Shown here: one piece after another, positions 1,593-21,942 of the stretch
Layout: each line of letters opens with the position of its first letter
Position numbering within the stretch: the first letter of the stretch is position 1
From: a virus
DNA: 21,942 nt
IMG/VR virus record: IMGVR_UViG_3300011128_000189
Span: 1 to 21,942 of that record
Reading direction: 5' to 3' (one strand)
Made by a program: the position numbers and the translations under genes
The notes under the pieces: model-generated
Told to the model about the DNA's origin: nothing
Database searches by the model: none
What the model saw: only the letters and a program-made list of their open reading frames with translations

Positions 1593-1745
1593 ATGTTTAA
1601 ACGATTTATTAAAGCACTGCAGGAAAGCCAACAACGAAGAGTATCATACTGGCAACTTAACAATATGTCAGACTCATCTCTAAAAGACATAGGGATCACA
1701 CGTGGTGAAATTAAACAAAAGTTCTACGGTAAAGAAAGCACCTAA
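1593..1745 (+). CDS. DUF1127 (YjiS-like) small protein
   Basis: A 50-residue protein. A strong ribosome binding site AAGGAG (1581-1586) lies 6 bases before the ATG. The C-terminal half reads YWQLNNMSDSSLKDIGITRG followed by EIKQKFYG, the hallmark of DUF1127: an aromatic, 'L..MSD..LKDIG', then '[ST]RG[ED]I'. The N-terminus is a short basic amphipathic helix (MFKRFIKALQ). DUF1127 proteins are abundant in alphaproteobacteria; the best-studied example, CcaF1 of Rhodobacter, is an RNA-binding protein acting in sRNA maturation and RNA turnover, and others affect phosphate and carbon metabolism. In a phage the likely role is to alter host RNA metabolism or gene regulation, which is inference. It stands apart from the structural proteins on both sides and has its own short upstream gap, like a 'moron' gene. 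Its last 44 bases overlap the next gene. Confidence 0.82.
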   Translation: MFKRFIKALQESQQRRVSYWQLNNMSDSSLKDIGITRGEIKQKFYGKEST

Positions 1746-2696: not shown

Positions 2697-3114
2697 TAAA
2701 ACTTGGAAGCTCCCTGAACCAGAGCTAGTTGATGGTGAGTATGAGTGGTTGTCTGTCGTTAGAGTAGGCAGAGTTGTGCCATTTGGCTATAGACAAGACC
2801 CTGAAGATGATGATATACTGCTACCAATCCCAGAAGAACTAGAAGCTTTAGAAGAAGCTAAGAAGTATCTAAAGCAATATAGTTACAGAGATGTAGCCAA
2901 CTGGATAAGTGAGAAGTCAGGTAGATATATCTCTCACGTGGGTCTAATGAAGAGAGTTAAACTTGAACGAAAACGTAAAGCAGAAGCTTCAACGCAACGC
3001 TATTACGCTGAACGCTACAAAGAAGCGGCGGCCAAAGCGGAAACCCTCGAAAGAAATCGTATCGGAGCCAGAGCTTCAACCAGTTCCAGCGAGAGTGAAG
3101 CCAGAGCCGATTGA
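2686..3114 (+). CDS. Helix-turn-helix packaging-associated protein
   Basis: A 142-residue protein overlapping the previous gene by 11 bases. Residues 10-50 form a probable beta domain (EYEWLSVVRVGRVVPFGYRQ) followed by an acidic loop. Residues 64-90 carry QYSYRDVANWISEKSGRYIS then HVGLMKR, which reads as a resolvase/terminase-type helix-turn-helix. Residues 91-125 are a Lys/Arg/Ala-rich helix. The last 20 residues are Ser/Ala/Glu low complexity. I recall this domain arrangement directly upstream of, or joined to, TerL in marine phages, so a DNA-recognition role in packaging is likely. The final 152 bases overlap the open TerL frame in the +1 frame; a frameshift product joining the two is possible (see findings). 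Confidence 0.7.
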   Translation: MKVNKTWKLPEPELVDGEYEWLSVVRVGRVVPFGYRQDPEDDDILLPIPEELEALEEAKKYLKQYSYRDVANWISEKSGRYISHVGLMKRVKLERKRKAEASTQRYYAERYKEAAAKAETLERNRIGARASTSSSESEARAD

Positions 3115-4519
3115 GGTAGAAAAAGCTCAAGACGTTATCTTTGAGCCTAATCCCGGCCCTCAAACAGACTTTCTCTCAGCGTCAGAACAAGAGGTACTAT
3201 ATGGTGGAGCGGCTGGTGGTGGTAAGTCTTTTGCTATGTTGGCCGATCCTGTTAGGTATTTTAATAATCCATTATCTTCTATGCTGTTGGTACGGAGAAG
3301 CACAGAAGAACTCAGAGAACTTATCTCAGTCTCCAAACAGCTCTACCCAAGAGCAATCCCCGGGATTAAGTTTATGGAACGTGATAAGACGTGGGTAGCT
3401 CCAAGCGGTGCAACTCTCTGGCTTTCATACCTAGATAGGGACGATGATGTACAAAGATACCAAGGACAAGCTTTTAACTGGATTGGTTTTGACGAACTTA
3501 CACAATGGCCTAGCCCTTATCCTTGGAACTATATGAGATCACGCCTACGTACTACTAAGAATAGTGGTCTAGGTTTATATCAAAGGGGTACTACTAACCC
3601 CGGTGGAGCAGGTCATCAGTGGGTTAAGAAGACTTTTGTAGACCCAGCCCCACATAATACTAGCTTTAATGCTACTGATATGGAAACGGGAGAGGTCATT
3701 GCTTGGCCTAAAGGTCACACAAAAGAGGGTCAGCCGTTGTTTAAACGCAGGTTTATTCCTGCTACTCTATTTGATAACCCGTACCTAGCTGATGATGGAT
3801 TATATGAAGCTAACCTACTATCACTACCAGAGCATCAACGTAAGCAACTACTTGAAGGTAACTGGGATGTAAATGAAGGTGCTGCTTTCCCTGAGTGGAA
3901 TAGACAAGTACACGTCATAGAACCCTTTGAAATACCTAGTGGCTGGGCAAGGTTTAGAGCATGTGACTACGGGTACGGTTCTTACTCAGGGGTTGTTTGG
4001 TTTGCTGTAGCTCCTGATGAACAACTAATTATTTACAGAGAGATGTACTGCTCAAAGGTTATAGCTACTGACCTAGCTGATATGATACTAGAAGCAGAGG
4101 ATGGAGAGAAAATACGCTACGGAGTCCTTGACTCATCTCTCTGGCATAAGCGTGGGGATACTGGTCCAAGCCTAGCTGAACAAATGATTATGCGAGGCTG
4201 TAGGTGGAGACCTGCTGACAGGTCCAGAGGTTCAAGGGTTGCAGGTAAGAATGAGATACACAGACGATTACAAGTAGATGAGTTTACAGAAGAACCAAGG
4301 CTAGTCTTTTTTAATACTTGTAGCAATACTATCTCACAGATACCAGCACTACCTTTGGATAAGAATAACCCTGAAGACGTAGACACACACTCAGAAGATC
4401 ACCTATACGATGCACTCAGGTATGGGGTTATGACAAGACCACGAAGCAGTCTGTTTGATTTTGACCCTGCAACACAACGATCAGGGTTTCAAGCAAGTGA
4501 CCCAACCTTCGGTTATTAA
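2963..4519 (+). CDS. terL: Terminase large subunit (ATPase/nuclease)
   Basis: The packaging motor: it hydrolyses ATP to drive DNA into the prohead and cuts the concatemer. With the longest start (518 residues) the Walker A is GGAAGGGKS (81-89), Walker B is IGFDEL (174-179), and the coupling motif is RGTTNPGGAG (208-217). The C-terminal nuclease has acidic positions in ACDYGYGS (D335), GVLDSS (D390) and DHLYDALRYG (D479, D483). All motifs are present, so the enzyme looks intact. The start is unclear: there is no ATG before the Walker A. TTG 2963 has AAGAGAG (2950-2956) upstream. GTG 3095 gives a more typical short N-terminus but has a poor ribosome binding site. The first 44 residues from the TTG are very basic. 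The frame overlaps the previous gene by 152 bases. Confidence 0.93.
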   Translation: MNENVKQKLQRNAITLNATKKRRPKRKPSKEIVSEPELQPVPARVKPEPIEVEKAQDVIFEPNPGPQTDFLSASEQEVLYGGAAGGGKSFAMLADPVRYFNNPLSSMLLVRRSTEELRELISVSKQLYPRAIPGIKFMERDKTWVAPSGATLWLSYLDRDDDVQRYQGQAFNWIGFDELTQWPSPYPWNYMRSRLRTTKNSGLGLYQRGTTNPGGAGHQWVKKTFVDPAPHNTSFNATDMETGEVIAWPKGHTKEGQPLFKRRFIPATLFDNPYLADDGLYEANLLSLPEHQRKQLLEGNWDVNEGAAFPEWNRQVHVIEPFEIPSGWARFRACDYGYGSYSGVVWFAVAPDEQLIIYREMYCSKVIATDLADMILEAEDGEKIRYGVLDSSLWHKRGDTGPSLAEQMIMRGCRWRPADRSRGSRVAGKNEIHRRLQVDEFTEEPRLVFFNTCSNTISQIPALPLDKNNPEDVDTHSEDHLYDALRYGVMTRPRSSLFDFDPATQRSGFQASDPTFGY

Positions 4520-4528
4520 GGATACACT

Positions 4529-6637
4529 ATGGACGAATTTGAAGAAAGCATGGGCATGGATGTTGAAGAGGCTACCTCTTTAGATGACATGAAAGAAGAT
4601 ACTTATAGTGATCCTCTTGCAGGTAGTATTGTAGGCCTTGTACAGAAACACTATAAGAAAGCATCTGACGCTAGAGAAACAGAAGAAACACGTTGGATAC
4701 AAGCTTACCGTAACTACCGTGGCCTCTATGGTCCTGATGTACAGTTTACTTCTACAGAAAAATCCCAAGTCTTTGTCAAAGTAACTAAGACTAAAGTCCT
4801 TGCAGCCTATGGTCAAATCATTGAGGTACTCTTTGGCAACAATAAGTTTCCAATCACTGTGGACCCTACTATACTGCCTGAAGGTGTAGCTGAGTCTGTA
4901 CACTTTGAATCTAATGATGAGATAAAGAAAGCACAAGGTCCAAGCCCAGAAGATACTAAGCTACTTCCCGGCGAGACTATGACTGATCTTAAAGAACGTC
5001 TAGCTGGTTTAAAGAATAGCCTAGCCCCTGTAGAGGACCAACTTAAAGAAGGTGTAGGTAGTACATCTACCCAGATTACATTTCATCCAGCAATGGTATC
5101 AGCTAAAAAGATGGAGAAGAAAATCCACGATCAGCTTGATGAATCTAATGCAAACAAACAGTTACGTGTAGCTGCCTTTGAATGCGCCTTGTTTGGTACA
5201 GGCGTAATGAAAGGTCCGTTTGCTATAGACAAAGAGTACCCTAGTTGGAATGAAGAGGGTGAGTATAGCCCTACTATTAAAACTATCCCACAAACTTCTA
5301 GTGTATCTCTTTGGAACTTCTACCCTGACCCTGATGCAGCTAACATGGATGAGGCTGAGTACGTTGTAGAACGTCACAAAATGTCACGTACACAAATACG
5401 TAATCTTAAAAGACGTCCCTTCTTTAGAAGCAATGCTATAGACCTTGCTATAGCTGACGGTGAGTCTTACACCAAAGAATGGTGGGAGCAAGCTATGGAA
5501 GATGATGCTCAGGAATCTAAAGCTGAACGCTTTGAAGTCCTTGAGTTTTGGGGTAACGTAGACACTGAGGTTCTTGAAGGACATGATATAGATATCCCTT
5601 CTGAGCTATCTGACATGGATCAAGTCAGTGTAAACATCTGGGTATGCAATGGTAAGGTATTGCGTTTAGTTATGAACCCATTCACTCCTGCTATCATTCC
5701 ATATTATGCAGTACCATATGAAGTAAGCCCATACAGCTTGTTTGGTGTAGGCATTGCTGAAAACATGGATGATACACAGACACTAATGAATGGCTTTATG
5801 CGAATGGCTGTTGACAATGCTGCACTGTCTGGCAATATGTTGATTGAAGTAGATGAGACTAACCTAGTTCCCGGCCAAGACCTTTCAGTATATCCCGGCA
5901 AAGTCTTTCGTCGCCAAGGCGGGGCGCCGGGACAAGCTATCTTTGGCACCAAGTTTCCCAACGTATCCAATGAGAACATGCAGATGTTTGATAAGGCACG
6001 TGTATTAGCAGACGAGAGTACAGGCTTTCCTAGCTTTGCTCACGGTCAGACAGGAGTACAAGGTGTCGGACGTACAGCTTCTGGCATTAGCATGCTCATG
6101 TCTGCTGCTAATGGTTCTATACGGAATGTAGTAAAGAACGTAGACGATTACCTACTAGCACCACTAGCTAAAGCATTCTTTAACTTCAACATGCAGTTTG
6201 ATTACGATGATGCAATCAAAGGCGATCTTGAAGTCAAAGCACGTGGTACTGAAAGTCTTATGGCTAATGAAGTACGTAGTCAACGCCTAATGCAATTTCT
6301 TGGTGTGGTACAAAACCCTGTACTAGCTCCCTTTGCTAAGATGGATTACATCGTGCGTGAGATTGCTAAGTCTATGGATCTTGACCCTGACAAATTGGTC
6401 AACTCAATGGGTGATGCTGCAGTACAAGCAGAGATACTTAAAAAGTTTCGTGCGGAGAATCCACCACCACCTCAACCACAAGCAGGTCCACCACAAGGAG
6501 GCCCACAGAAGCCACCAGCAGGCGCACAGGTACAGGATACCCAAGGCAGCGGTGGAGGTACTATAGGTACAGGCACAGCACCTCAGCCGGGGGAACAGGG
6601 CTTCTCAGCTAACACTGGACAAGGACCAATGCAGTGA
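4529..6637 (+). CDS. Portal protein
   Basis: A 702-residue protein, the size usual for podovirus-type portals, which form the dodecameric ring at the capsid vertex through which DNA passes and to which the terminase and tail attach. It directly follows TerL, with AAGGA 5 to 10 bases upstream of the ATG. The N-terminus is acidic; then come a helical region with 'WIQAYRNYRGLYG' (about 57-69) and 'VKVTKTKVLAAYGQIIEVLF' (about 83-102), a large mixed middle, and a long helical part containing 'ENMDDTQTLMNGFMRMAVDN' (about 414-433), which resembles the portal stem/wing helices. The last 60 residues are Pro/Gln/Gly-rich and disordered. No catalytic motifs are expected. Confidence comes from length, gene order and overall pattern. 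Confidence 0.9.
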   Translation: MDEFEESMGMDVEEATSLDDMKEDTYSDPLAGSIVGLVQKHYKKASDARETEETRWIQAYRNYRGLYGPDVQFTSTEKSQVFVKVTKTKVLAAYGQIIEVLFGNNKFPITVDPTILPEGVAESVHFESNDEIKKAQGPSPEDTKLLPGETMTDLKERLAGLKNSLAPVEDQLKEGVGSTSTQITFHPAMVSAKKMEKKIHDQLDESNANKQLRVAAFECALFGTGVMKGPFAIDKEYPSWNEEGEYSPTIKTIPQTSSVSLWNFYPDPDAANMDEAEYVVERHKMSRTQIRNLKRRPFFRSNAIDLAIADGESYTKEWWEQAMEDDAQESKAERFEVLEFWGNVDTEVLEGHDIDIPSELSDMDQVSVNIWVCNGKVLRLVMNPFTPAIIPYYAVPYEVSPYSLFGVGIAENMDDTQTLMNGFMRMAVDNAALSGNMLIEVDETNLVPGQDLSVYPGKVFRRQGGAPGQAIFGTKFPNVSNENMQMFDKARVLADESTGFPSFAHGQTGVQGVGRTASGISMLMSAANGSIRNVVKNVDDYLLAPLAKAFFNFNMQFDYDDAIKGDLEVKARGTESLMANEVRSQRLMQFLGVVQNPVLAPFAKMDYIVREIAKSMDLDPDKLVNSMGDAAVQAEILKKFRAENPPPPQPQAGPPQGGPQKPPAGAQVQDTQGSGGGTIGTGTAPQPGEQGFSANTGQGPMQ

Positions 6638-9641: not shown

Positions 9642-10715
9642 ATGGCTTTTACAACCGCATCAGGTCATGGGAATTTACCAAACGGTAACTTTAGTCCCAT
9701 CATCTATTCCAAAAAAGTACAACTTGCTTTCCGCAAGAGTACTGTATGTGGCGATATTACTAACTCTGATTATTTCGGTGAAATTTCAGCTCAAGGTGAT
9801 ACCGTCAAAATTATTAAAGAACCAGAAATTTCGGTATCTGAGTATGCACGTGGCACAACTGTCACAGCACAAGACTTGGATGACGAGGATTTTTCTTTGG
9901 TAGTAGACAAAGCTAACTACTTTGCTTTTAAAATGGATGACATTGAAGAAGCTCATAGCCACGTCAACTTTATGGACCTTGCAACCAACCGTGCTGCATA
10001 CCGTCTTGCTGACCAACATGACCAAGAAGTTCTTGCGTATATGTCTGGTTACAAACAGACTTCTTTGCACACCCAAGGTTCTGCATTAAATACAACTGTT
10101 AATGGTACTAAAGCAGTATCAACTGCTGGTTCTAACGAACTGCTTTCCTCTATGCAACTGCATAAGGATGACTTTGGCAACATCACTACAAGCTCTGCAG
10201 GAACACACTCTATTCCTCTGGCTGCACGTTTGCCCGGTGCTACTGCACTCCCAGATGAAACGGCTTCACCAGCAATGGTTGTTGCTCGTATGGCTCGTTT
10301 GCTTGATCAACAACAAGTTGACAAACAAGGGCGTTGGATTGTAGTTGATCCAGTATTCATGGAAATTCTTGCTGATGAAGATTCACGCTTTATGAATGCA
10401 GACTTCGGTGAATCAGGTGGACTTCGTAATGGGTTGACCATTAACAACTTCCACGGCTTCCGTGTATATTCTTCGTCTAACCTACCAGCGGTAGGTACTG
10501 GACCGGGAACTACTGGTACTGCCAACCAATTGACTAACTTCGGTGTTATCGTAGCTGGTCATGATTCTGCTGTAGCAACTGCAGAGCAAATCAATAAAAC
10601 AGAATCATATCGTGACCCTGACAGCTTTGCTGACATTGTTCGTGGTATGCATCTATACGGTCGTAAGATTCTTCGTCCTGAAGCAATCGTTACCGCCCGT
10701 TATAACGCAGCGTAA
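9642..10715 (+). CDS. Major capsid protein
   Basis: A 357-residue protein, the usual length for an HK97-fold or P22-like coat. It forms the icosahedral shell around the scaffold and DNA. An ideal AGGAGG ribosome binding site (9629-9634) lies 7 bases before the ATG. Residues 18-60 look like the N-arm and first strands. TVTAQDLDDEDFSLVVDKAN (73-92) and DIEEAHSHVNFMDLATNRAA (100-119) followed by YRLADQHDQEVLAYMSGY are the long-helix 'spine' part typical of these coats. The middle (about 195-275) is a peripheral domain with 'WIVVDPVFMEILADED'. The C-terminal part returns to strands (GFRVYSSSNLPAVGTG) and ends ILRPEAIVTARYNAA. The family is known from marine podovirus-like phages. The DNA is less AT-rich at codon third positions than some of its neighbours, which fits high expression. 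Confidence 0.93.
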   Translation: MAFTTASGHGNLPNGNFSPIIYSKKVQLAFRKSTVCGDITNSDYFGEISAQGDTVKIIKEPEISVSEYARGTTVTAQDLDDEDFSLVVDKANYFAFKMDDIEEAHSHVNFMDLATNRAAYRLADQHDQEVLAYMSGYKQTSLHTQGSALNTTVNGTKAVSTAGSNELLSSMQLHKDDFGNITTSSAGTHSIPLAARLPGATALPDETASPAMVVARMARLLDQQQVDKQGRWIVVDPVFMEILADEDSRFMNADFGESGGLRNGLTINNFHGFRVYSSSNLPAVGTGPGTTGTANQLTNFGVIVAGHDSAVATAEQINKTESYRDPDSFADIVRGMHLYGRKILRPEAIVTARYNAA

Positions 10716-14153: not shown

Positions 14154-17100
14154 ATGGCAGGTTACGCAAGACAGTCATCGGCAGATATTGTTGCAACAGC
14201 CGTTGTACGTGCGAACCCATTGAATGTAGAGTTTAACGCTTTACGTGATACTTTTGCATTAGCTACAGGACATACACATGATGGATCAGCTACAGAGGGC
14301 GGTTATGTACCTCTTATTGCTGACTCGGACGCACTAAATAAAATAGCTATTGACACTAGTAATAATAGAGTTGGGATATTTGTTGAGGTATCTAGTGCTG
14401 CAGTAGAGCAAATACGTATTCAAGATGGTGCTATTGTTCCTGTAACTGATAGTGATATTGACTTAGGTACATCTACTTTAGAATTTAAAGACTTATTTCT
14501 TGATGGTACTGCACACATAGATACACTTGATGTAGATGCAAATGCTGGTATCATAGGTAATTTAACAGTAAGTGGCAACACCACTCTTGGTGATGCAGCA
14601 TCCGATACAGTCACTGTTACTGCTGATGTAGCTTCACCACTTATTCCTTCTACTGATGACACATATGACCTTGGTGCTAGTGGCTCTGAGTGGCGTAACT
14701 TATACATTGACGGTACTGCTAATATTGATGCACTTGTAGCTGATACTGCAGATATTAATGGTGGTACTGCTGATGGTGTAGTTATAGGTGGCTCTAGTGC
14801 TGCTGCTGGTACATTCACTTCTTTAACTGCTACAGGCACATCTACACTTACTACTGTTGATATTGATGGTGGTGCTATTGATGGTGCTATTATTGGTGCT
14901 AACTCTGCTGCTGCTATTACAGGCACTACTATTACAGGTACATCTCTTGTAGGTGCTGTAACAGGTAATGCTGATACTGCAACTGCACTTGAAACAGCAA
15001 GAAATATTGGCGGTGTTAGCTTTGATGGTACAGCTAATATTAACTTACCGGGTGTTAATACTTCGGGTAATCAAGACACATCAGGTACTGCAGCAAATGC
15101 AACGGTACTTGAAACTGCTAGAACAATCGGTGGTGTTTCCTTTGATGGTAGTGCCAATATTAATCTTTCTGGTGTTAATGCTGCGGGTAATCAAGATACC
15201 TCTGGAAATGCAGCTACGGCTACTACACTTGCAACAGCTAGGACTATTGCGGGGCAATCGTTTAACGGTTCTGCTAATATTACTATTGCTGCTACTGATC
15301 TTTCTGATACTGACCAAAGTCTAGCAACAGGTGACAACGTACAGTTTGCCCAAGTAACAACTACAGCCAATGTTATTGTTGGTGGTGATCTAACAGTCAA
15401 TGGAACTACTACCACTGTTGACACGACTAACATGGTTGTGTCTGATGCACTGATTGAGTTAGGCAATGGTACTACAGGTACACCTGCCAATGATGCTGGT
15501 ATTGTAATTGAACGTGGTGATGCAGCTAATGCATTCATTGGTTATGATGAAAGTGCAGATAAGTTCACTGTAGGTACAGGTACATTTACTGGTGCATCCA
15601 CAGGTAATCTGTCTATCACTACAGGTACTCTTGTTGCCAACATCGAAGGTGACGTAACGGGTGATCTTACAGGTAATGCTGTTACAGCTACAGCCTTAGC
15701 AACTTCACGTACAATTGCTGGTCATTCTTTCGATGGTACAGCTAACATCAGCATTGCTCCTACCGATTTAACTGGGGTTAATAGTACCGCTGCTGAATTA
15801 AACATCATGGCGGGGGGTACGTCAGCCACCAGCACAACTCTCGCAGATGCTGACCGTGTAGTGGTCAATGATGCTGGTACTATGAAGCAAGTCGCACTGA
15901 CTGACTTTGAAACGTACATGGAGACTAGCTTAGATACTCTCAGCAATGTGACTGCAGTCGGGGCATTAAACAGCGGTAGTATTACATCAGGCTTTGGTGC
16001 TATTGATGTTGGTTCTTCTGCTATTACTACTACAGGCACGATGACCTTCGGCTCACTAGCTGATGGCTCTATTACTATTACAGGCTTTGTAGATGAAGAT
16101 GATATGTTATCTAATTCTGCTACTCTTATTCCTACTCAACAGTCTGTTGAAGCACGTATTCAAGCAGTTAATAGTTCATCCAACAACGTAACTGGCCTTA
16201 ATGCTACAGGCGCAGAGATTAACACAGTAGCAGACCCTGTTACGTCTATCGGTACAACAGCCGTAGCTGGTGGCGATGGGATCGTTACGCAGGACACATC
16301 TGACAATGTAATGCTACAGACTACTGTCGATACGTTTGATACCTATCTGTCGCAGACCACCAAGACGCTTACCAATAAGACACTGACTAGCCCAATAGTA
16401 ACTGGGCTGCACCTTAATGACTCAGGCTTCACCGTTGAAGGTTCGGCTGAGGATGGCAATGACACTACAGTAGCCTTCACTAACCCGACTGCCGATAGAA
16501 CAATTACTTTGCCTGATGCTACAGGTAATCTGGCTGTATTTACTACGGCTCCCACGGCTGCAATCACTGACGGTTCATCAGGACAGTTTTTAACAACTGA
16601 TGGCTCTGGTGCATTGAGTTTTGCTACTGCTGGTGGTGGTGGTGCTTCTGCTTCAGATGATTTGTATATTGCCAATCCTAGTTCAGCCACAAACCCTAGT
16701 GCGACAGGGGATAATGCTGTGGCGATTGGTAGTGGATCGGTAGCCTCTGGGTTAAAAACATTTGCAATAGGTACCGACACTGATGCTACTGGGCTTTACA
16801 GCTTTGCTATCGGTCAAGGCGCACAAGCCACAGCAAACTACAACTTAGCTATAGGCTTAAATGCAGTTTCTTCTGGGGAACGGGCAGTTGCTATTGGCAA
16901 CAACTCTGTAACAGCTTCTGCCAGTTGGAGTACAGCAATTGGCAATAACTCTGGCAATGGTGGTTCCAAAGCCGTTACAGGTTCAGGCGCAATGGCCCTC
17001 GGCGGCTCCTACGCATCTGGCACAAATTCCTTCGCAGCAGCTATAGCCGACAACGCAGCAACCTACGGGGCTCTTGGCGCTAACTCTGTGGCGATTGGGT

Positions 17101-17834
17101 ATCGGGCGAAGGCATCAGGTTCTTTTAGTTCAATAGCATTTGGATCGGACGCTGTGTCTAGTGGTCGTGCTTCCATTGCCATTGGAGAAGGGGCAACCGC
17201 TTCCGCAGACAGTGCGGTGTGCTTCGGTGAGGACTCAACTGCATCTGGGGCAAATTCTTCTGTACTAGGTGGATTGGATAATACTGCGAGTGCATTAAGG
17301 TCTGTTGTCCTAAACGGTTATCAGAACACAGCAAGTTATGACTACTCAATCGCCTCTGGCGCAAATTCAAAGTCTGATAAGTGGGCAAAGGTTTCCCATG
17401 CTGGCGGTCAGTTTTCTTCGCAAGGGGATGCCCAAACAGGCACGATGGTTCTCCGTAGCGACACCACAGACGCAACACCTGAAGCATTGACTGCCAACAA
17501 TCTTACCGCTGCTACAACTAACCAAGTCATCCTCCCCAACAACTCTGCTTACAGTTTCAGCGGCACCATCGTAGCCCGTCAGCAAGCGTCAGCAGGCACA
17601 GCCTCTGCAGCATGGAAGGTTGAGGGTCTGATCCGCAGAGAAGGTTCCGCCAGCACAACCGTGTTAGTCAACAGCGCCACTACAGTTTTGGACAATACAC
17701 CTTCATGGGGCATGTCTCTTAGTGCAGATACGACCACAAACGGGGGTGGCCTTAAAATTCAGGTCACAGGCGCAGCGTCAACAAATATCCGCTGGGTAGC
17801 AACAATCAACACTTCTGAAGTCACATACGCTTAA
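14154..17834 (+). CDS. Long tail fibre with YadA-like head repeats
   Basis: A 1226-residue protein, probably trimeric and extracellular on the virion, that contacts the host surface. The N-terminal 60 residues (ARQSSADIVATAVVRANPLN; FALATGHTHDGS) look like the part that attaches to the tail. Residues about 60-270 contain shaft segments such as 'YDLGASGSEWRNLYIDGTA'. Four copies of AR(T/N)I(G/A)GxSFDGxANI lie within about 272-540, a motif frequent in phage fibres. The section around 540-840 has EFT/TNKTLTSP-type segments of known fibre type. Residues about 846-1070 are 'AVAIGSGSVASG' repeats like the YadA adhesin head (left-handed beta-roll). Residues 1070-1226 form a C-terminal domain starting KWAKVSHAGGQFSSQGDAQT. 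The DNA of the last third is visibly richer in G and C at codon third positions than the first half, so it may have been exchanged. Confidence 0.88.
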   Translation: MAGYARQSSADIVATAVVRANPLNVEFNALRDTFALATGHTHDGSATEGGYVPLIADSDALNKIAIDTSNNRVGIFVEVSSAAVEQIRIQDGAIVPVTDSDIDLGTSTLEFKDLFLDGTAHIDTLDVDANAGIIGNLTVSGNTTLGDAASDTVTVTADVASPLIPSTDDTYDLGASGSEWRNLYIDGTANIDALVADTADINGGTADGVVIGGSSAAAGTFTSLTATGTSTLTTVDIDGGAIDGAIIGANSAAAITGTTITGTSLVGAVTGNADTATALETARNIGGVSFDGTANINLPGVNTSGNQDTSGTAANATVLETARTIGGVSFDGSANINLSGVNAAGNQDTSGNAATATTLATARTIAGQSFNGSANITIAATDLSDTDQSLATGDNVQFAQVTTTANVIVGGDLTVNGTTTTVDTTNMVVSDALIELGNGTTGTPANDAGIVIERGDAANAFIGYDESADKFTVGTGTFTGASTGNLSITTGTLVANIEGDVTGDLTGNAVTATALATSRTIAGHSFDGTANISIAPTDLTGVNSTAAELNIMAGGTSATSTTLADADRVVVNDAGTMKQVALTDFETYMETSLDTLSNVTAVGALNSGSITSGFGAIDVGSSAITTTGTMTFGSLADGSITITGFVDEDDMLSNSATLIPTQQSVEARIQAVNSSSNNVTGLNATGAEINTVADPVTSIGTTAVAGGDGIVTQDTSDNVMLQTTVDTFDTYLSQTTKTLTNKTLTSPIVTGLHLNDSGFTVEGSAEDGNDTTVAFTNPTADRTITLPDATGNLAVFTTAPTAAITDGSSGQFLTTDGSGALSFATAGGGGASASDDLYIANPSSATNPSATGDNAVAIGSGSVASGLKTFAIGTDTDATGLYSFAIGQGAQATANYNLAIGLNAVSSGERAVAIGNNSVTASASWSTAIGNNSGNGGSKAVTGSGAMALGGSYASGTNSFAAAIADNAATYGALGANSVAIGYRAKASGSFSSIAFGSDAVSSGRASIAIGEGATASADSAVCFGEDSTASGANSSVLGGLDNTASALRSVVLNGYQNTASYDYSIASGANSKSDKWAKVSHAGGQFSSQGDAQTGTMVLRSDTTDATPEALTANNLTAATTNQVILPNNSAYSFSGTIVARQQASAGTASAAWKVEGLIRREGSASTTVLVNSATTVLDNTPSWGMSLSADTTTNGGGLKIQVTGAASTNIRWVATINTSEVTYA

Positions 17835-18161: not shown

Positions 18162-19322
18162 ATGACTCTTGTAATTGATTACTCAAGTGGTATCTTTGAG
18201 GCAGCACCTTCAGGTGAAACTGTTGGTACTGTTACAGGTAATGCCACTTTAGATTTAACATCCGGTAATCTTTTTAATCATACACCTACTGCTAACACTA
18301 CCTTTGTGTTTAGCAATCCACCTACTACGGGTAGTGCATACGATATGACACTGAAGGTAGTAGGGGCTAACGTTACTGCTGGGTATGGCTTAGCTAATGC
18401 AAGTTACGATAGTGTTAGCTTTAGTGTAAGTGGGCAGGAAAGTATCCCTATTGGGTTGTTTTTTAAGCCTGATGGCACAAAGATGTATGTATCAGGCCCA
18501 AACTCAGACGCCGTTTTTCAATACAGTTTGTCTACAGCTTGGGACCTAAGCACTGCATCTTACGATAGTGTTAGCTTTTCTGTTTCTTCACAGGACTTGA
18601 GTGCTGCAAGCATTTACTTCAAATCAGATGGCACTAAGATGTATTTGGCTGGGTACACTGGTGACAGCGTGTATCAATATACCTTGTCTACTGCATGGGA
18701 CTTGTCAACAGCATCGTATGACAGCGTTAGCTTTTCTGTAGCATCTCAAGCAACCACACCGTTTTCGTTAATATTTAAGCCAGATGGCACTAAAATGTTT
18801 TTAACAGATGGCACAAGTGACGCTGTGAAAGAATATTCATTAAGCACGGCTTGGGACATTTCCACTGCATCATATCAAGCGAGTTTTGGTGTGGCTTCTC
18901 AAGAAACAAACCCTTATGGATTAGAGTTCAATCCAGATGGCACTAAAATGTATATTGTCGGCATTACAACCGATACTGTCTATGAATATGCCCTGTCTAC
19001 CGCTTGGGATATAACGACCGCTTCTTATAGCAGTGTTAGCTTTTCTGTAGCTTCGCAATCTTCGCAACCAGCTCCCGTTAGTATGAGATTCGGCAACGAT
19101 GGTCAAAAACTTTATGTTTCTGACGCTGGCTCAGACACCATTTACCAATACTCCACAAGCACAACAGCATTAGCAACACTCACATACCCTTCCTCAGTAA
19201 AGTGGGCTGGGGGTACTGCACCATCTGCTCCTGCTAACGGTAACAAGGATGTGTACAACTTCTTCACAATTGATGGCGGCACCACGTACTACGGTTTCCA
19301 AGCAGGAGATGCAATGGCATGA
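18162..19322 (+). CDS. Propeller-repeat receptor-binding protein, copy 1
   Basis: A 386-residue protein. Residues 1-77 are the first half of a fibre-end module (IDYSSGIFEA, VGTVTGNATLDLTSGNLFNH, TPTANTTFVFSNPP). Five repeats of about 52 residues start at 80, 132, 184, 236 and 287; each has ASYDSVSFSV, FKPDGTKMYV and a DxVYQYxLSTAWD segment and looks like one beta-propeller blade. Residues 337-386 (YPSSVKWAGG, DGGTTYYGFQAGDAM) are the second half of the module. As I recall it, the module usually occurs without the repeats, so the propeller seems to be inserted into one of its loops. No catalytic motif is visible. Position after the long fibre suggests a surface receptor-binding role. Its stop overlaps the next start as ATGA. 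Confidence 0.85.
   Translation: MTLVIDYSSGIFEAAPSGETVGTVTGNATLDLTSGNLFNHTPTANTTFVFSNPPTTGSAYDMTLKVVGANVTAGYGLANASYDSVSFSVSGQESIPIGLFFKPDGTKMYVSGPNSDAVFQYSLSTAWDLSTASYDSVSFSVSSQDLSAASIYFKSDGTKMYLAGYTGDSVYQYTLSTAWDLSTASYDSVSFSVASQATTPFSLIFKPDGTKMFLTDGTSDAVKEYSLSTAWDISTASYQASFGVASQETNPYGLEFNPDGTKMYIVGITTDTVYEYALSTAWDITTASYSSVSFSVASQSSQPAPVSMRFGNDGQKLYVSDAGSDTIYQYSTSTTALATLTYPSSVKWAGGTAPSAPANGNKDVYNFFTIDGGTTYYGFQAGDAMA
18362..18424 (+). repeat. 63-base direct repeat, copy A (copy B at 19516-19578)
   Basis: Bases 18362-18424 and 19516-19578 agree at 60 of 63 positions by direct reading. The segment codes for the junction between the fibre-end module and the first propeller repeat in copies 1 and 2. 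It includes the 19-mer TTACGATAGTGTTAGCTTT. Its conservation, while the following repeats have diverged, suggests recent copying or gene conversion. Confidence 0.85.
18399..19154 (+). repeat. Five tandem propeller-like repeats, copy 1
   Basis: Five protein-coding repeats of 153 or 156 bases (starts at residues 80, 132, 184, 236, 287 of the gene). Consensus per repeat is ASYDSVSFSVxSQ, then a turn, FKPDGTKMY, a variable four to five residue loop with G and D, then VYQYxLSTAWDxST. The most variable positions are those right after SxSQ and those after KMY, which would be surface loops on one face of a propeller. This is not a CRISPR array; the repeats lie in frame in a protein. Confidence 0.85.
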
Positions 19323-20470
19323 CTGTGCTTATTGATTATACCAAAGGCTTCTTTGAGACAACAGAAGGCGATACTGTTGGTACAGTTACAGGCAATGCTA
19401 CGTTGGACCTATCGACAGGCTCTGTGTTTAGCCATACGCCTACTGCCAATACCACCTTTGCATTCACCAATCCTGCAGCATCAGGTACATCTTCTAGTGC
19501 AACGTTAAAGCTGACAGGGGCTAACGTTACTGCTGGGTATAACTTAGCTAATGTAAGTTACGATAGTGTTAGCTTTAGCGGGGCAACTCAAAGCTCCGGT
19601 ATGAACACTTTTTCACTTGGTTATGAAGGCAGCCGTTTGTATATGGTTGACAGTACTAATGATACCATCTACCAATATAATCTAACAACTCCTTATGATA
19701 TTTCCACGGCGAGCTACTCAACGAAAAGTTTTTCTGTTGCGACACAAGAAGGTTCCCCTTCGGGAATATATTTTAAACCAGATGGGCAGACTGTTTTTGT
19801 TGGTGGTTATAGCTCTGACACAATATACCAATATAGTCTCAGCACAGCTTGGGATATTTCTTCTGCAAGTTATGCTTCAAAGTCGTTTTCCGTTTCTGCT
19901 CAAGAAACTGTACCAAGAAACTTTTGGGTAAACCCTGCTGGCACAAAGCTATTTTCAGTGGGGCAAACTGGAGACGATGTGAACGAGTATACTCTTTCTT
20001 CTGCATGGGATATTAGCACTGCTTCCTACACGCAAAACTTTAGCGTTGCCGCACAAGATACTACTCCAATTGGAATATATTTTTCACCAGCCGGAGATAA
20101 AATGTTCATTGCTGGTTCGGTTGGAGATTCCGTTTACCAATACACCCTTAGCACGGCCCTTGATATATCTACAGCCTCCTACGACAGCATTGCTTTTAGT
20201 ATTTCTGGGCAAGATAATTCGCCCATTGGCGTTGCTTTCAATGGCACCGGCTCCAAGATGTATGTCGTAGGCGCTACTAGCGACACCGTCTACCAATACT
20301 CCATAAACACAACAGCATTAGCAACAATAACTTACCCTTCCTCTGTTATTTGGTCAGGTGGCACAACACCAACAGCACCTGCCAATGGTGAGACTGATGT
20401 GTACTCATTCTATACGGACGATGGCGGTACAACATATTACGGATTTGTATCAGGAGATGCTTTAGCATGA
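19319..20470 (+). CDS. Propeller-repeat receptor-binding protein, copy 2
   Basis: A 383-residue paralogue of the preceding protein, beginning at the ATGA overlap (19319-19322). It has the same order: N-terminal half-module (IDYTKGFFETTEGDTVGTVT, TPTANTTFAFTNPA), five repeats starting at 79, 131, 183, 235 and 286, then the half-module NTTALATITYPSSVIWSGG and DGGTTYYGFVSGDALA. Repeat spacing (52, 52, 52, 51) equals that of copy 1, so the whole gene was probably duplicated. Individual repeats have diverged clearly, and the first and fourth differ most from the consensus (SVSFSGATQSSGMN). The terminal module parts are the most conserved. No ribosome binding site is needed if translation is coupled. 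Its stop overlaps the next start in the same ATGA fashion. Confidence 0.85.
   Translation: MTVLIDYTKGFFETTEGDTVGTVTGNATLDLSTGSVFSHTPTANTTFAFTNPAASGTSSSATLKLTGANVTAGYNLANVSYDSVSFSGATQSSGMNTFSLGYEGSRLYMVDSTNDTIYQYNLTTPYDISTASYSTKSFSVATQEGSPSGIYFKPDGQTVFVGGYSSDTIYQYSLSTAWDISSASYASKSFSVSAQETVPRNFWVNPAGTKLFSVGQTGDDVNEYTLSSAWDISTASYTQNFSVAAQDTTPIGIYFSPAGDKMFIAGSVGDSVYQYTLSTALDISTASYDSIAFSISGQDNSPIGVAFNGTGSKMYVVGATSDTVYQYSINTTALATITYPSSVIWSGGTTPTAPANGETDVYSFYTDDGGTTYYGFVSGDALA
19516..19578 (+). repeat. 63-base direct repeat, copy B
   Basis: Second copy of the 18362-18424 segment, with three substitutions visible (two adjacent in the Tyr-Gly/Asn region, and one in the Ala/Val codon before SYDSVSF). 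It spans the same module-propeller junction in the second paralogue. Confidence 0.85.
19553..20305 (+). repeat. Five tandem propeller-like repeats, copy 2
   Basis: Five in-frame repeats in the second paralogue with the same 52/52/52/51-residue spacing as in copy 1. The DxxYQYxLSTAWDIS part is kept in most repeats, while the segment between SQ and the FKPDGT motif varies. The repeats do not copy copy-1 repeats one by one at the DNA level, so they are older than the junction segments or have been selected to change. Confidence 0.82.
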
Positions 20471-21942
20471 GTGTATCAATAGACTATACTGGCGGTGTAT
20501 TCCAAGCCAACAAAGCCAAGAGTGTTGGTACAATTACGGCTGGCACCGGAACGTACAACCTTGCTGTTGCGAGTTATGATAGTGTTAGTTTTAGTGTGGC
20601 TTCTCAGGAGGCTAATCCGTTTGGTATGTTTTTTAAGCCAGATGGCACTGCTTTATATTTATGTGGCACTAGTGGCGATGATGTAAATGAATATTCTTTG
20701 TCTTCTGCATGGGATATTAGCACAATGAGTTTTGTACAAAACTTTAGTGTTTCATCACAAGAAACCGTGCCAACATGTATTTTCTTTAAGAACGATGGAA
20801 CTAAGATGTTTATAGCAGGGCAAGGGTCAGATGCTATAAATGAATATACTCTTTCTACTGCATGGAATGTTTCAACTGCTTCTTATACGCAAAACTTTAG
20901 TATTTCCTCACAAGAGGCGGCAGTTAGAGGTTTATTCTTTAAAGGTGATGGAACTAAGATATATGTAGCTGGCACTTCTGGTGATGATGTAAACGAATAC
21001 AATCTAAGCACAGCTTGGGATATATCTACTGCATCATTTAATCAGGTTTCTTCATCTATCTCATCTCAAGTAGCAAGTGTAGCGAGTTTGTATTTTTCAC
21101 CAGACGGTGGTTATTTTTATGTGACAGACGATTATAATAATGATGTTTCTGAATATTCTCTATCAACTGCTTGGGACGTAAGCGCTATATCTTATGTACA
21201 AAACTTCAGTGTCTACTCAGAGGGAACTAATGTTACAGGTTTATCTTTTAAATCTGATGGTTCAAAGATGTATGTACTTAATCGCACTAACGACACCATT
21301 TATCAATACAGCACAGGCACAGCTACAAGCCTAGACATCTCCAGCGGCACATACTTCAACTACACGCCATCAGTCAACACCACGTTTACTTTTGGTAATG
21401 CACCAGCATCTGGCACGGCGGCTGGCTTTGCTTTGGCACTTACTGGTGGTAATGCGGCTGCGGTATATGACATTGCTAATGCAAGTTACGATAGTGTTAG
21501 CTTTAGTGTGGCTTCTCAGGATGGTGTACCTGTAGGTATTACCTTCAAACCTGATGGCACATCTATGTTTATTACTGGCAATGGTAATGACAATGTGTAC
21601 CAGTACACACTTAGCACGGCTTGGGATGCCTCAACTGCTTCTTATGCATCCAAAAGTTTCAGTGTGGCTACTCAGGAAACTGCTGTTTCTGGGTCTGCGT
21701 TTAAGCCTGATGGCACTTTGTTATACGTTTGTGGGTCGGGAACAGACAGTGTTTTTCAATACACACTAAGCACAGCTTGGGATATTTCCACTGCCTCTTA
21801 TGCATCTAAAAGTTTTAGCTTCAGTACACAAGATAACGTTGTTACTGGAGTAGCCTTTAATGATGACGGTACTAAAATGTATATTTCAGGAAGTGGTAAC
21901 GACACAATATTTCAATACAGTTTAAGCACAGCTTGGGATATT
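20467..21942 (+). CDS. Propeller-repeat protein, copy 3, runs off the window
   Basis: It begins at the ATGA overlap (20467-20470) and stays open for 492 codons to the right edge, so the 3' end is missing. The start MSVSIDYTGGVFQ and SVGTITAGTG align with the module's beginning in copies 1 and 2. Then five repeats start at 35, 87, 138, 189 and 241. The interrupted module resumes as SLDISSGTYFNYTPSVNTTF and FGNAPASGTAAG (288-320), followed by a second set of repeats at 339, 391 and 443, cut by the edge. Thus a propeller sits at an earlier loop of the module than in copies 1 and 2, and a second one at the usual loop. If the pattern holds, the missing part holds about two more repeats and the YPSSVKW/DGGTTYYGF ending. 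Confidence 0.85.
   Translation, partial: MSVSIDYTGGVFQANKAKSVGTITAGTGTYNLAVASYDSVSFSVASQEANPFGMFFKPDGTALYLCGTSGDDVNEYSLSSAWDISTMSFVQNFSVSSQETVPTCIFFKNDGTKMFIAGQGSDAINEYTLSTAWNVSTASYTQNFSISSQEAAVRGLFFKGDGTKIYVAGTSGDDVNEYNLSTAWDISTASFNQVSSSISSQVASVASLYFSPDGGYFYVTDDYNNDVSEYSLSTAWDVSAISYVQNFSVYSEGTNVTGLSFKSDGSKMYVLNRTNDTIYQYSTGTATSLDISSGTYFNYTPSVNTTFTFGNAPASGTAAGFALALTGGNAAAVYDIANASYDSVSFSVASQDGVPVGITFKPDGTSMFITGNGNDNVYQYTLSTAWDASTASYASKSFSVATQETAVSGSAFKPDGTLLYVCGSGTDSVFQYTLSTAWDISTASYASKSFSFSTQDNVVTGVAFNDDGTKMYISGSGNDTIFQYSLSTAWDI
20569..21942 (+). repeat. Two sets of propeller-like repeats in copy 3
   Basis: Five repeats (residues 35-283) then at least three more (339-492), separated by about 55 residues of the fibre-end module. 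The first set is partly of another subtype, with NEYSLSSAWD/NEYTLSTAWN instead of YQY and FVQNFSVSSQ or YTQNFSISSQ instead of YDSVSFSV. The second set returns to the YDSVSFSVASQ and VYQYTLSTAWD subtype. TTACGATAGTGTTAGCTTT occurs at the start of the second set (21486-21504). Confidence 0.82.

Follow-up and report, generated by a model that had tools for sequence, protein, structure and literature searches.

A conserved promoter-hairpin module that may gate translation of a DUF1127 gene in HMO-2011-type roseophages

Introduction

The question raised by this locus is why a phage should carry, amid the genes for its virion, a homologue of a small bacterial regulator, and how the synthesis of that protein is controlled. 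The window analysed here is a stretch of 21,942 nucleotides from a viral fragment of 22,397 bases, and a DUF1127 gene is found near its 5' end. In A. tumefaciens, proteins of this family bind PhoR and hold back the Pho regulon, and CcaF1 and YjiS can complement there (PMC12501420). CcaF1 is cited in the same paper as an RNA-binding DUF1127 protein; for YjiS from Salmonella, association with the membrane is reported and RNA binding was not found (PMC11707872). Since the family includes an RNA binder, a PhoR binder and a membrane-associated protein, membership alone does not pick the function of a given member.

Results

The DUF1127 gene and the phage that carries it

The genes of the window needed for orientation are the following:

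1593-1745, + strand: DUF1127 gene, ATG start, 50 aa, MFKRFIKALQESQQRRVSYWQLNNMSDSSLKDIGITRGEIKQKFYGKEST, with a PF06568 match and a conserved frame
1702-1944, + strand: small basic gene of PHROG 17747 (unknown), GTG start, with a 44-nt overlap with the DUF1127 3' end in another frame
2337-2696, + strand: terminase small subunit (TerS), PHROG 2538, E=5e-7, four genes 3' of DUF1127
2963-4519, + strand: TerL, in the packaging/structural arm
4529-6637, + strand: portal, in the packaging/structural arm
9642-10715, + strand: major capsid, in the packaging/structural arm

The original prediction, which had assigned the 50-residue product to DUF1127, is borne out by the HMM search that it called for: residues 6-40 of the protein align with positions 2-36 of the 37 in PF06568 (hmmscan, E=2e-8, 34.3 bits against a gathering cut-off of 23.3). 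The best PHROG for this protein is 26566, of unknown function. The frame is conserved as well, with a relative confirmed by tblastn in 267 viral contigs when the window protein is used as a single query, and a median dN/dS of 0.18 (267 pairs of 50-aa homologues, dS 0.1-1.5) indicates that the phage gene is under purifying selection. Near the C-terminus, the D-I-G core of the family (D32, I33 and G34) is invariant in 24 phage sequences, and the invariant residues also include W20, L22, D27, L30, R37, E39 and I40. The window protein has a net charge of +5 and contains 8% R and 12% K, against an average of 14% arginine in PF06568 (PMC12501420). Its predicted fold consists of a long N-terminal helix (2-23) and two shorter ones (27-33 and 37-49), with a mean pLDDT of 80. 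A structure search in BFVD gave a best E of 0.065, which is not significant alone, and the matches include phage proteins named YjiS-like or DUF1127.

The two features by which HMO-2011-type phages are recognized, TerL homology and the gene order terS-terL-portal, are both found in the window. Its TerL is 71-80% identical to those of the nearest HMO-2011-type Roseobacter phages, with 79.5% identity to Roseobacter phage CRP-13, 66.5% to HMO-2011, and a range of 66-80% across HMO-2011, CRP-13, CRP-9, CRP-2, CRP-603 and CRP-207. Because of the identities to CRP-13 and HMO-2011, the window is identified from its sequence as a fragment of an HMO-2011-type podovirus, and its host is probably a roseobacter. 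These phages rank among the most abundant marine viruses (PMC9038755). The placement of the gene within a structural region is confirmed, with TerS, TerL, portal and major capsid all encoded downstream on the same strand.

The overlap between DUF1127 and the PHROG 17747 gene holds only if the GTG start of the latter is right, and a similar one is seen in a relative (15488-15640 and 15585-15830). The second gene shows no obvious Shine-Dalgarno of its own. Given this, together with the overlap in another frame and the GTG start, it may be translationally coupled to DUF1127. The surroundings of DUF1127, at 37-2340, encode several small, lysine-rich and very basic proteins; their net charges run from +8 to +44, and stretches rich in glycine, GYAKGG for example, occur in some of them. 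Further downstream, 14154-17834 encodes a tail-fibre-like protein of 1226 aa with an adhesin-type stalk, as seen from its YadA head repeats (PF05658, E=7e-11). Next, at 18162-21942, come three tail-region genes in a row that are paralogues of one another (56% and ~39-55% identity) and carry repeated S-F-S-V-[AS]-x-Q motifs. Two of them are complete and match beta-propeller lactonase/SGL models, which suggests a tandem expansion of propeller-like proteins.

Distribution among phages and hosts

Hundreds of marine viral contigs carry the phage gene. Among 50,697 phage records searched by tblastn, DUF1127 is present in all 11 HMO-2011-type roseophage isolates found (CRP-235, 212, 3, 207, 13, 738, 345, 1, 9, 2 and 603), of which six are confirmed by whole-record HMM and the other five rest on tblastn. 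By HMM it is absent from nine relatives of other or unknown hosts, namely HMO-2011 on SAR116; HTVC033P, 103P, 104P and 115P on SAR11; the rhizobial phages RHph_N3_19, RHph_N3_13 and phiM6; and ctYwJ313. The comparison of these 11 isolates with the nine relatives is uncorrected for kinship, and its most informative member is HMO-2011, because this phage has been placed with the roseophages in subgroup I (PMC9038755).

A separate DUF1127 is held by the Cobaviruses SIO1, ICBM1, P12053L, CRP-4 and CRP-6 and by the Autographivirid CRP-118, where it adjoins mazG and, in most of them, ribonucleotide reductase. Among viral contigs, 304 code for a protein related to that of ICBM1. In ICBM1 (3690-6186), as in other Cobaviruses, DUF1127 lies exactly between mazG and ribonucleotide reductase, and in the HMO-2011-type phage CRP-207 (14000-16300) these two genes are adjacent with no DUF1127 between them. 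In roseophages, the gene thus seems to reside at either of two places. The Sinorhizobium T4-like phage phiM12 has its DUF1127 (3501-3659) near tRNAs and a homing endonuclease, and this is probably a separate capture. In a tree of 51 columns, which offers little further resolution, HMO-type and Cobavirus sequences are separated by a 99/99 branch and phiM12 falls among host sequences; on these grounds at least two captures by phages, and probably three, took place.

On the host side, DUF1127 occurs in all 61 sampled Rhodobacteraceae genomes, with 1-11 copies each, and in 44 of 115 Alphaproteobacteria, where most genomes under 2 Mb are without it. The gene had been offered as a clue to the host, and both the Rhodobacteraceae count and the TerL identities to Roseobacter phages agree with that. 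The hope of finding the donor group through host versions fared worse: the 17 genome relatives obtained are not close (34-63% over short stretches), and a donor could not be named from any of them.

The upstream box and the predicted promoters

The features upstream of the gene, from 5' to 3', are the following:

1513-1528, + strand: upstream box TTATAACGGGGTTGCA (family consensus GCATAACGGGGTTGCA), its 5' end overlapping the stop codon of the upstream gene
1524-1552, + strand: possible promoter P1, TTGCAA - 17 nt - TAGAGT, with a weak -10 here and TATAAC in many relatives
1558-1594, + strand: hairpin, 5' arm at 1558-1562 and 1568-1574, 3' arm at 1583-1594
1559-1567, + strand: predicted promoter P2, extended -10 TGGTATAAC, predicted +1 at about 1574-1575
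1582-1586, + strand: Shine-Dalgarno AGGAG

A rare gap and a strong ribosome binding site had been pointed out in front of the gene. Both the 74-nt gap (1519-1592) and the Shine-Dalgarno AAGGAG are real; what had been overlooked is that the site is hidden in a hairpin. When the upstream DNA of relatives is compared, the gap proves to be strongly conserved, with the consensus order GCATAACGGGGTTGCA, 32 or 33 nt, TATAAC, hairpin and ATG. Of 185 unique leaders, 182 have a TATAAY hexamer no more than 110 nt upstream of the gene. The box, which was found through this comparison and is counted here from the TATAAY anchor, matches at 10 or more of its 16 positions in 175 of the 182 unique TATAAY leaders, versus 37 of 2660 trials with shuffled upstream DNA. 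Its spacing to TATAAY is 32 or 33 nt in 134 of 135 leaders selected by pattern. It is a probable activator site or -35-like element.

For P1, at least five of the six -10 positions match at a spacing of 17 +/- 1 in 85 of 175 leaders, and for P2 a TG occupies the extended position in 124 of 175; this TG is missing from the 26 leaders in the 32-nt class that have a good P1. Both promoters may be in use. A simple sigma70 scan of the window listed neither of them, because P2 is without a -35 and P1 is weak in this phage.

Association of the module with DUF1127 is close. At least 175 distinct pattern matches were gathered from two viral-contig scans and the loci of the earlier comparison; among them, 162 have DUF1127 within 450 nt downstream, and the remaining 13, among the matches listed, look unrelated to DUF1127 or due to chance. 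In the contigs checked, the module is single copy per genome. It stays with DUF1127 where terS lies apart, as in CRP-235 (eight genes between) and CRP-345 (several). The strict pattern is absent from HMO-2011, the pelagiphages, the rhizobial relatives and the Cobaviruses, an absence that is only suggestive, because the variant boxes of CRP-3, CRP-235 and CRP-603 escape this pattern too. The module is likewise absent from 298 Rhodobacteraceae genomes.

A predicted hairpin over the Shine-Dalgarno

Folding predicts that, in read-through RNA of the window, the Shine-Dalgarno and some of the AUG are paired within the hairpin. This leader has a folding energy of -11.1 kcal/mol (z -2.95; one of 200 shuffles as good), and the probability that its GGAG is unpaired is 0.006. 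Folding energies for the leaders of relatives range from about -9 to -27 kcal/mol, and z reaches -6; most of these hairpins are stronger than that of the window (mean about -18). Of 175 unique leaders, 163 have at least three of the four GGAG bases paired. Averaged over all 175, the probability of GGAG being unpaired is 0.09 in read-through RNA versus 0.84 in RNA starting 7 nt past TATAAY, and values below 0.2 are reached by 140 leaders in the former and by none in the latter. Because the leaders have common ancestry, these counts do not represent independent events. In eight sequences from these phages, 63 GGAG-ATG starts were compared, and DUF1127 accounts for the four that are buried most deeply.

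The 5' arm exists in 77 distinct versions, and pairing is kept despite these changes. Own arms pair at -9.98 kcal/mol versus -6.90 for swapped arms, an average advantage of 3.1, and own arms are better in 77.7% of 5460 swaps. As minimum-energy folds give standard pairs by construction, the argument depends on the tests by swapping and shuffling. Covariation is weak when a MAFFT alignment is analysed with RNAalifold, since the loops differ in length and put the 3' arm out of register. A search of Rfam gave only a sub-threshold chance match, to the snoRNA GlsR6 (13.5 bits against a gathering threshold of 75). A terminator or attenuator was also considered for the hairpin and rejected, since no U-tract follows it.

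In 162 of 163 folded leaders, the 3'-most partner of GGAG lies no further than +8 after the P2 -10 hexamer, with a mode of +7, so that the anti-Shine-Dalgarno strand ends at or before the predicted transcription start. When one leader is taken per distinct 5' arm, pairing and position are both found in 50 of 59, versus 184 of 590 same-base shuffles, with mean energies of -18.5 and -9.7, respectively. In seven leaders, including the CRP-235 type, the whole anti-Shine-Dalgarno strand lies upstream of the -10, and the promoter thus sits between the arms. Because two different layouts share one consequence, the geometry is best explained by selection for a P2 transcript without the anti-Shine-Dalgarno strand.

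Discussion

A proposed gate on DUF1127 translation and its alternatives

The reading preferred here, to which a probability of roughly 0.55 is given, is that DUF1127 is fixed in HMO-2011-type roseophages as a mimic of a host regulator and is made through its own promoter and a translational gate. The gene and its conservation, the module, the pairing and the geometry come from sequence analysis. Read-through RNA from the upstream late-arm genes would hold both arms of the hairpin, bury the Shine-Dalgarno and usually the AUG, and remain untranslated. RNA from the extended -10 TGGTATAAC would start at about 1575, a position that we infer, past the anti-Shine-Dalgarno strand, and would be open and translated. 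A factor that binds the upstream box probably assists initiation there. The protein would in this manner be made at a set time in infection, and a late time is suggested by gene position only. One point against the gate is the good sigma70-like P1 (TTGCA-N17-TATAAC) in about half of the leaders, as the predicted P1 transcript would carry the hairpin. The comparatively weak hairpin of the window, the shared ancestry of the leaders and the low arginine content of the protein speak against the preferred reading as well.

P1 is also an argument for regarding the hairpin as the 5' end of a normal P1 mRNA and as a true riboregulator, opened by temperature, by ribosome availability or by an RNA-binding protein, perhaps DUF1127 itself in an autoregulatory loop. 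The predicted P1 start falls at the foot of the hairpin, CcaF1 provides an RNA-binding member of the family, and a host DUF1127 gene from S. meliloti is under leader attenuation responsive to translation (PMC12218461). However, the P1 -10 has decayed in many leaders, including that of the window, while the P2 TATAAY is kept even where it is unpaired. The sequences of arms and loop vary widely, unlike those of a sequence-specific binding site, Cobavirus DUF1127 genes do without such a leader, the anti-Shine-Dalgarno strand ends no later than the predicted P2 start in 162 of 163 leaders, and in seven the -10 sits between the arms. This alternative is considered rather doubtful.

It is unlikely that the module serves mainly as a late-operon promoter for the packaging and structural genes, which do lie downstream on the same strand, with DUF1127 as a first gene whose function has nothing to do with the host (assembly, say, or handling of phage mRNA). 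In CRP-207, twelve late-arm genes lie upstream of DUF1127, and the late arm must therefore have other promoters. Moreover, the gate would act specifically on DUF1127 translation, and other phage lineages gained the gene in other contexts.

The conserved gap might also be a DNA element for packaging (pac/cos) or an operator beside the terminase genes, with the hairpin incidental to it. Its single copy per genome would suit such an element, as would its location before terS both here and in relatives, but the module travels with DUF1127 and not with terS, relatives with terS and without DUF1127 lack it by the strict pattern, and the arms go on pairing despite sequence change, which a protein site on DNA would not need; this reading is very unlikely. 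Packaging of the protein into the virion, which the original prediction had allowed, followed by its injection, is very unlikely even for a basic protein encoded within the packaging/structural arm, since a search for proteomic evidence found none, small non-virion genes are common there (an endolysin and a spanin lie beside DUF1127), the Cobavirus and CRP-118 homologues sit away from virion genes in a nucleotide-metabolism block, and the gene order of the window needs no virion role.

The role of the protein

The phage protein is most likely a soluble, basic, helical regulator that mimics the small DUF1127 proteins of the host. PhoR-PhoB signalling and RNA are its candidate targets. Host DUF1127 limits the uptake of phosphate, so the phage version might act in either of two ways, by shutting down the Pho response or by displacing its host counterpart. 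A tentative extension of the preferred reading is that the gene was captured repeatedly for a timed takeover of phosphate (PhoR-PhoB) or RNA regulation in the host, and that HMO-2011-type phages put it under lock, its early synthesis being harmful to the phage.

Most genes of HMO-2011-type phages have no known role. A near-universal, selected homologue of a host regulator with a locked promoter would point to a specific step of host control, perhaps in phosphate signalling. Since CRP-3, CRP-207 and CRP-235 and the host FZCC0040 are in culture, the promoter, the hairpin and the protein target are directly testable. The order box-TATAAC-hairpin also provides a DNA marker for finding such phages.

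Comparison with known systems

Database names such as 'DUF1127 domain-containing protein' already exist for phage proteins, and the mere presence of the family in phages is therefore not new, although a literature search found no paper describing a phage DUF1127 gene. Within PF06568, the window protein resembles CcaF1, the Agrobacterium SDPs and YjiS in its HMM match above the cut-off, its size of about 50 aa, its basic charge, its conserved D-I-G core and its predicted helices. Unlike them, it is phage-encoded and has more lysine than arginine, and HMO-type proteins are set apart from other members as a YWQL...LKDIGITRGEI group of their own. The mazG-DUF1127-ribonucleotide reductase block of the Cobaviruses and CRP-118 likewise places DUF1127 in roseophages, but it belongs to another lineage of the protein and another operon and has no box-hairpin module.

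Regarding leader control, the S. meliloti gene duf1127-1 (PMC12218461) is also a DUF1127 gene governed by its mRNA leader. Its mechanism involves an upstream ORF and premature transcription termination, whereas here a hairpin over the ribosome binding site occurs without a terminator-like U-tract. The closest parallel is found in T4, where hairpins hide the ribosome binding sites of e, soc, 49 and I-TevI. In the case of gene e, lysozyme yield from the long RNA is ~100-fold lower, and the late-promoter RNA is without the 5' part of the structure (PMC3014915). Like these leaders, that of phage DUF1127 has its Shine-Dalgarno and AUG buried in read-through RNA, as folding predicts, and a predicted promoter of its own sited, by geometry, so that its RNA lacks the 5' arm. 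The T4 late promoter lies near or between the arms, while here an extended -10, sigma70-like promoter with an upstream box is predicted to set the start. Unlike in T4, the DUF1127 gate would operate in unrelated podoviruses and over a homologue of a host regulator and, if true, it extends the timing device of T4 gene e to an unrelated phage group. What is new is this conserved promoter-hairpin module, by which the translation of DUF1127 appears to be gated.
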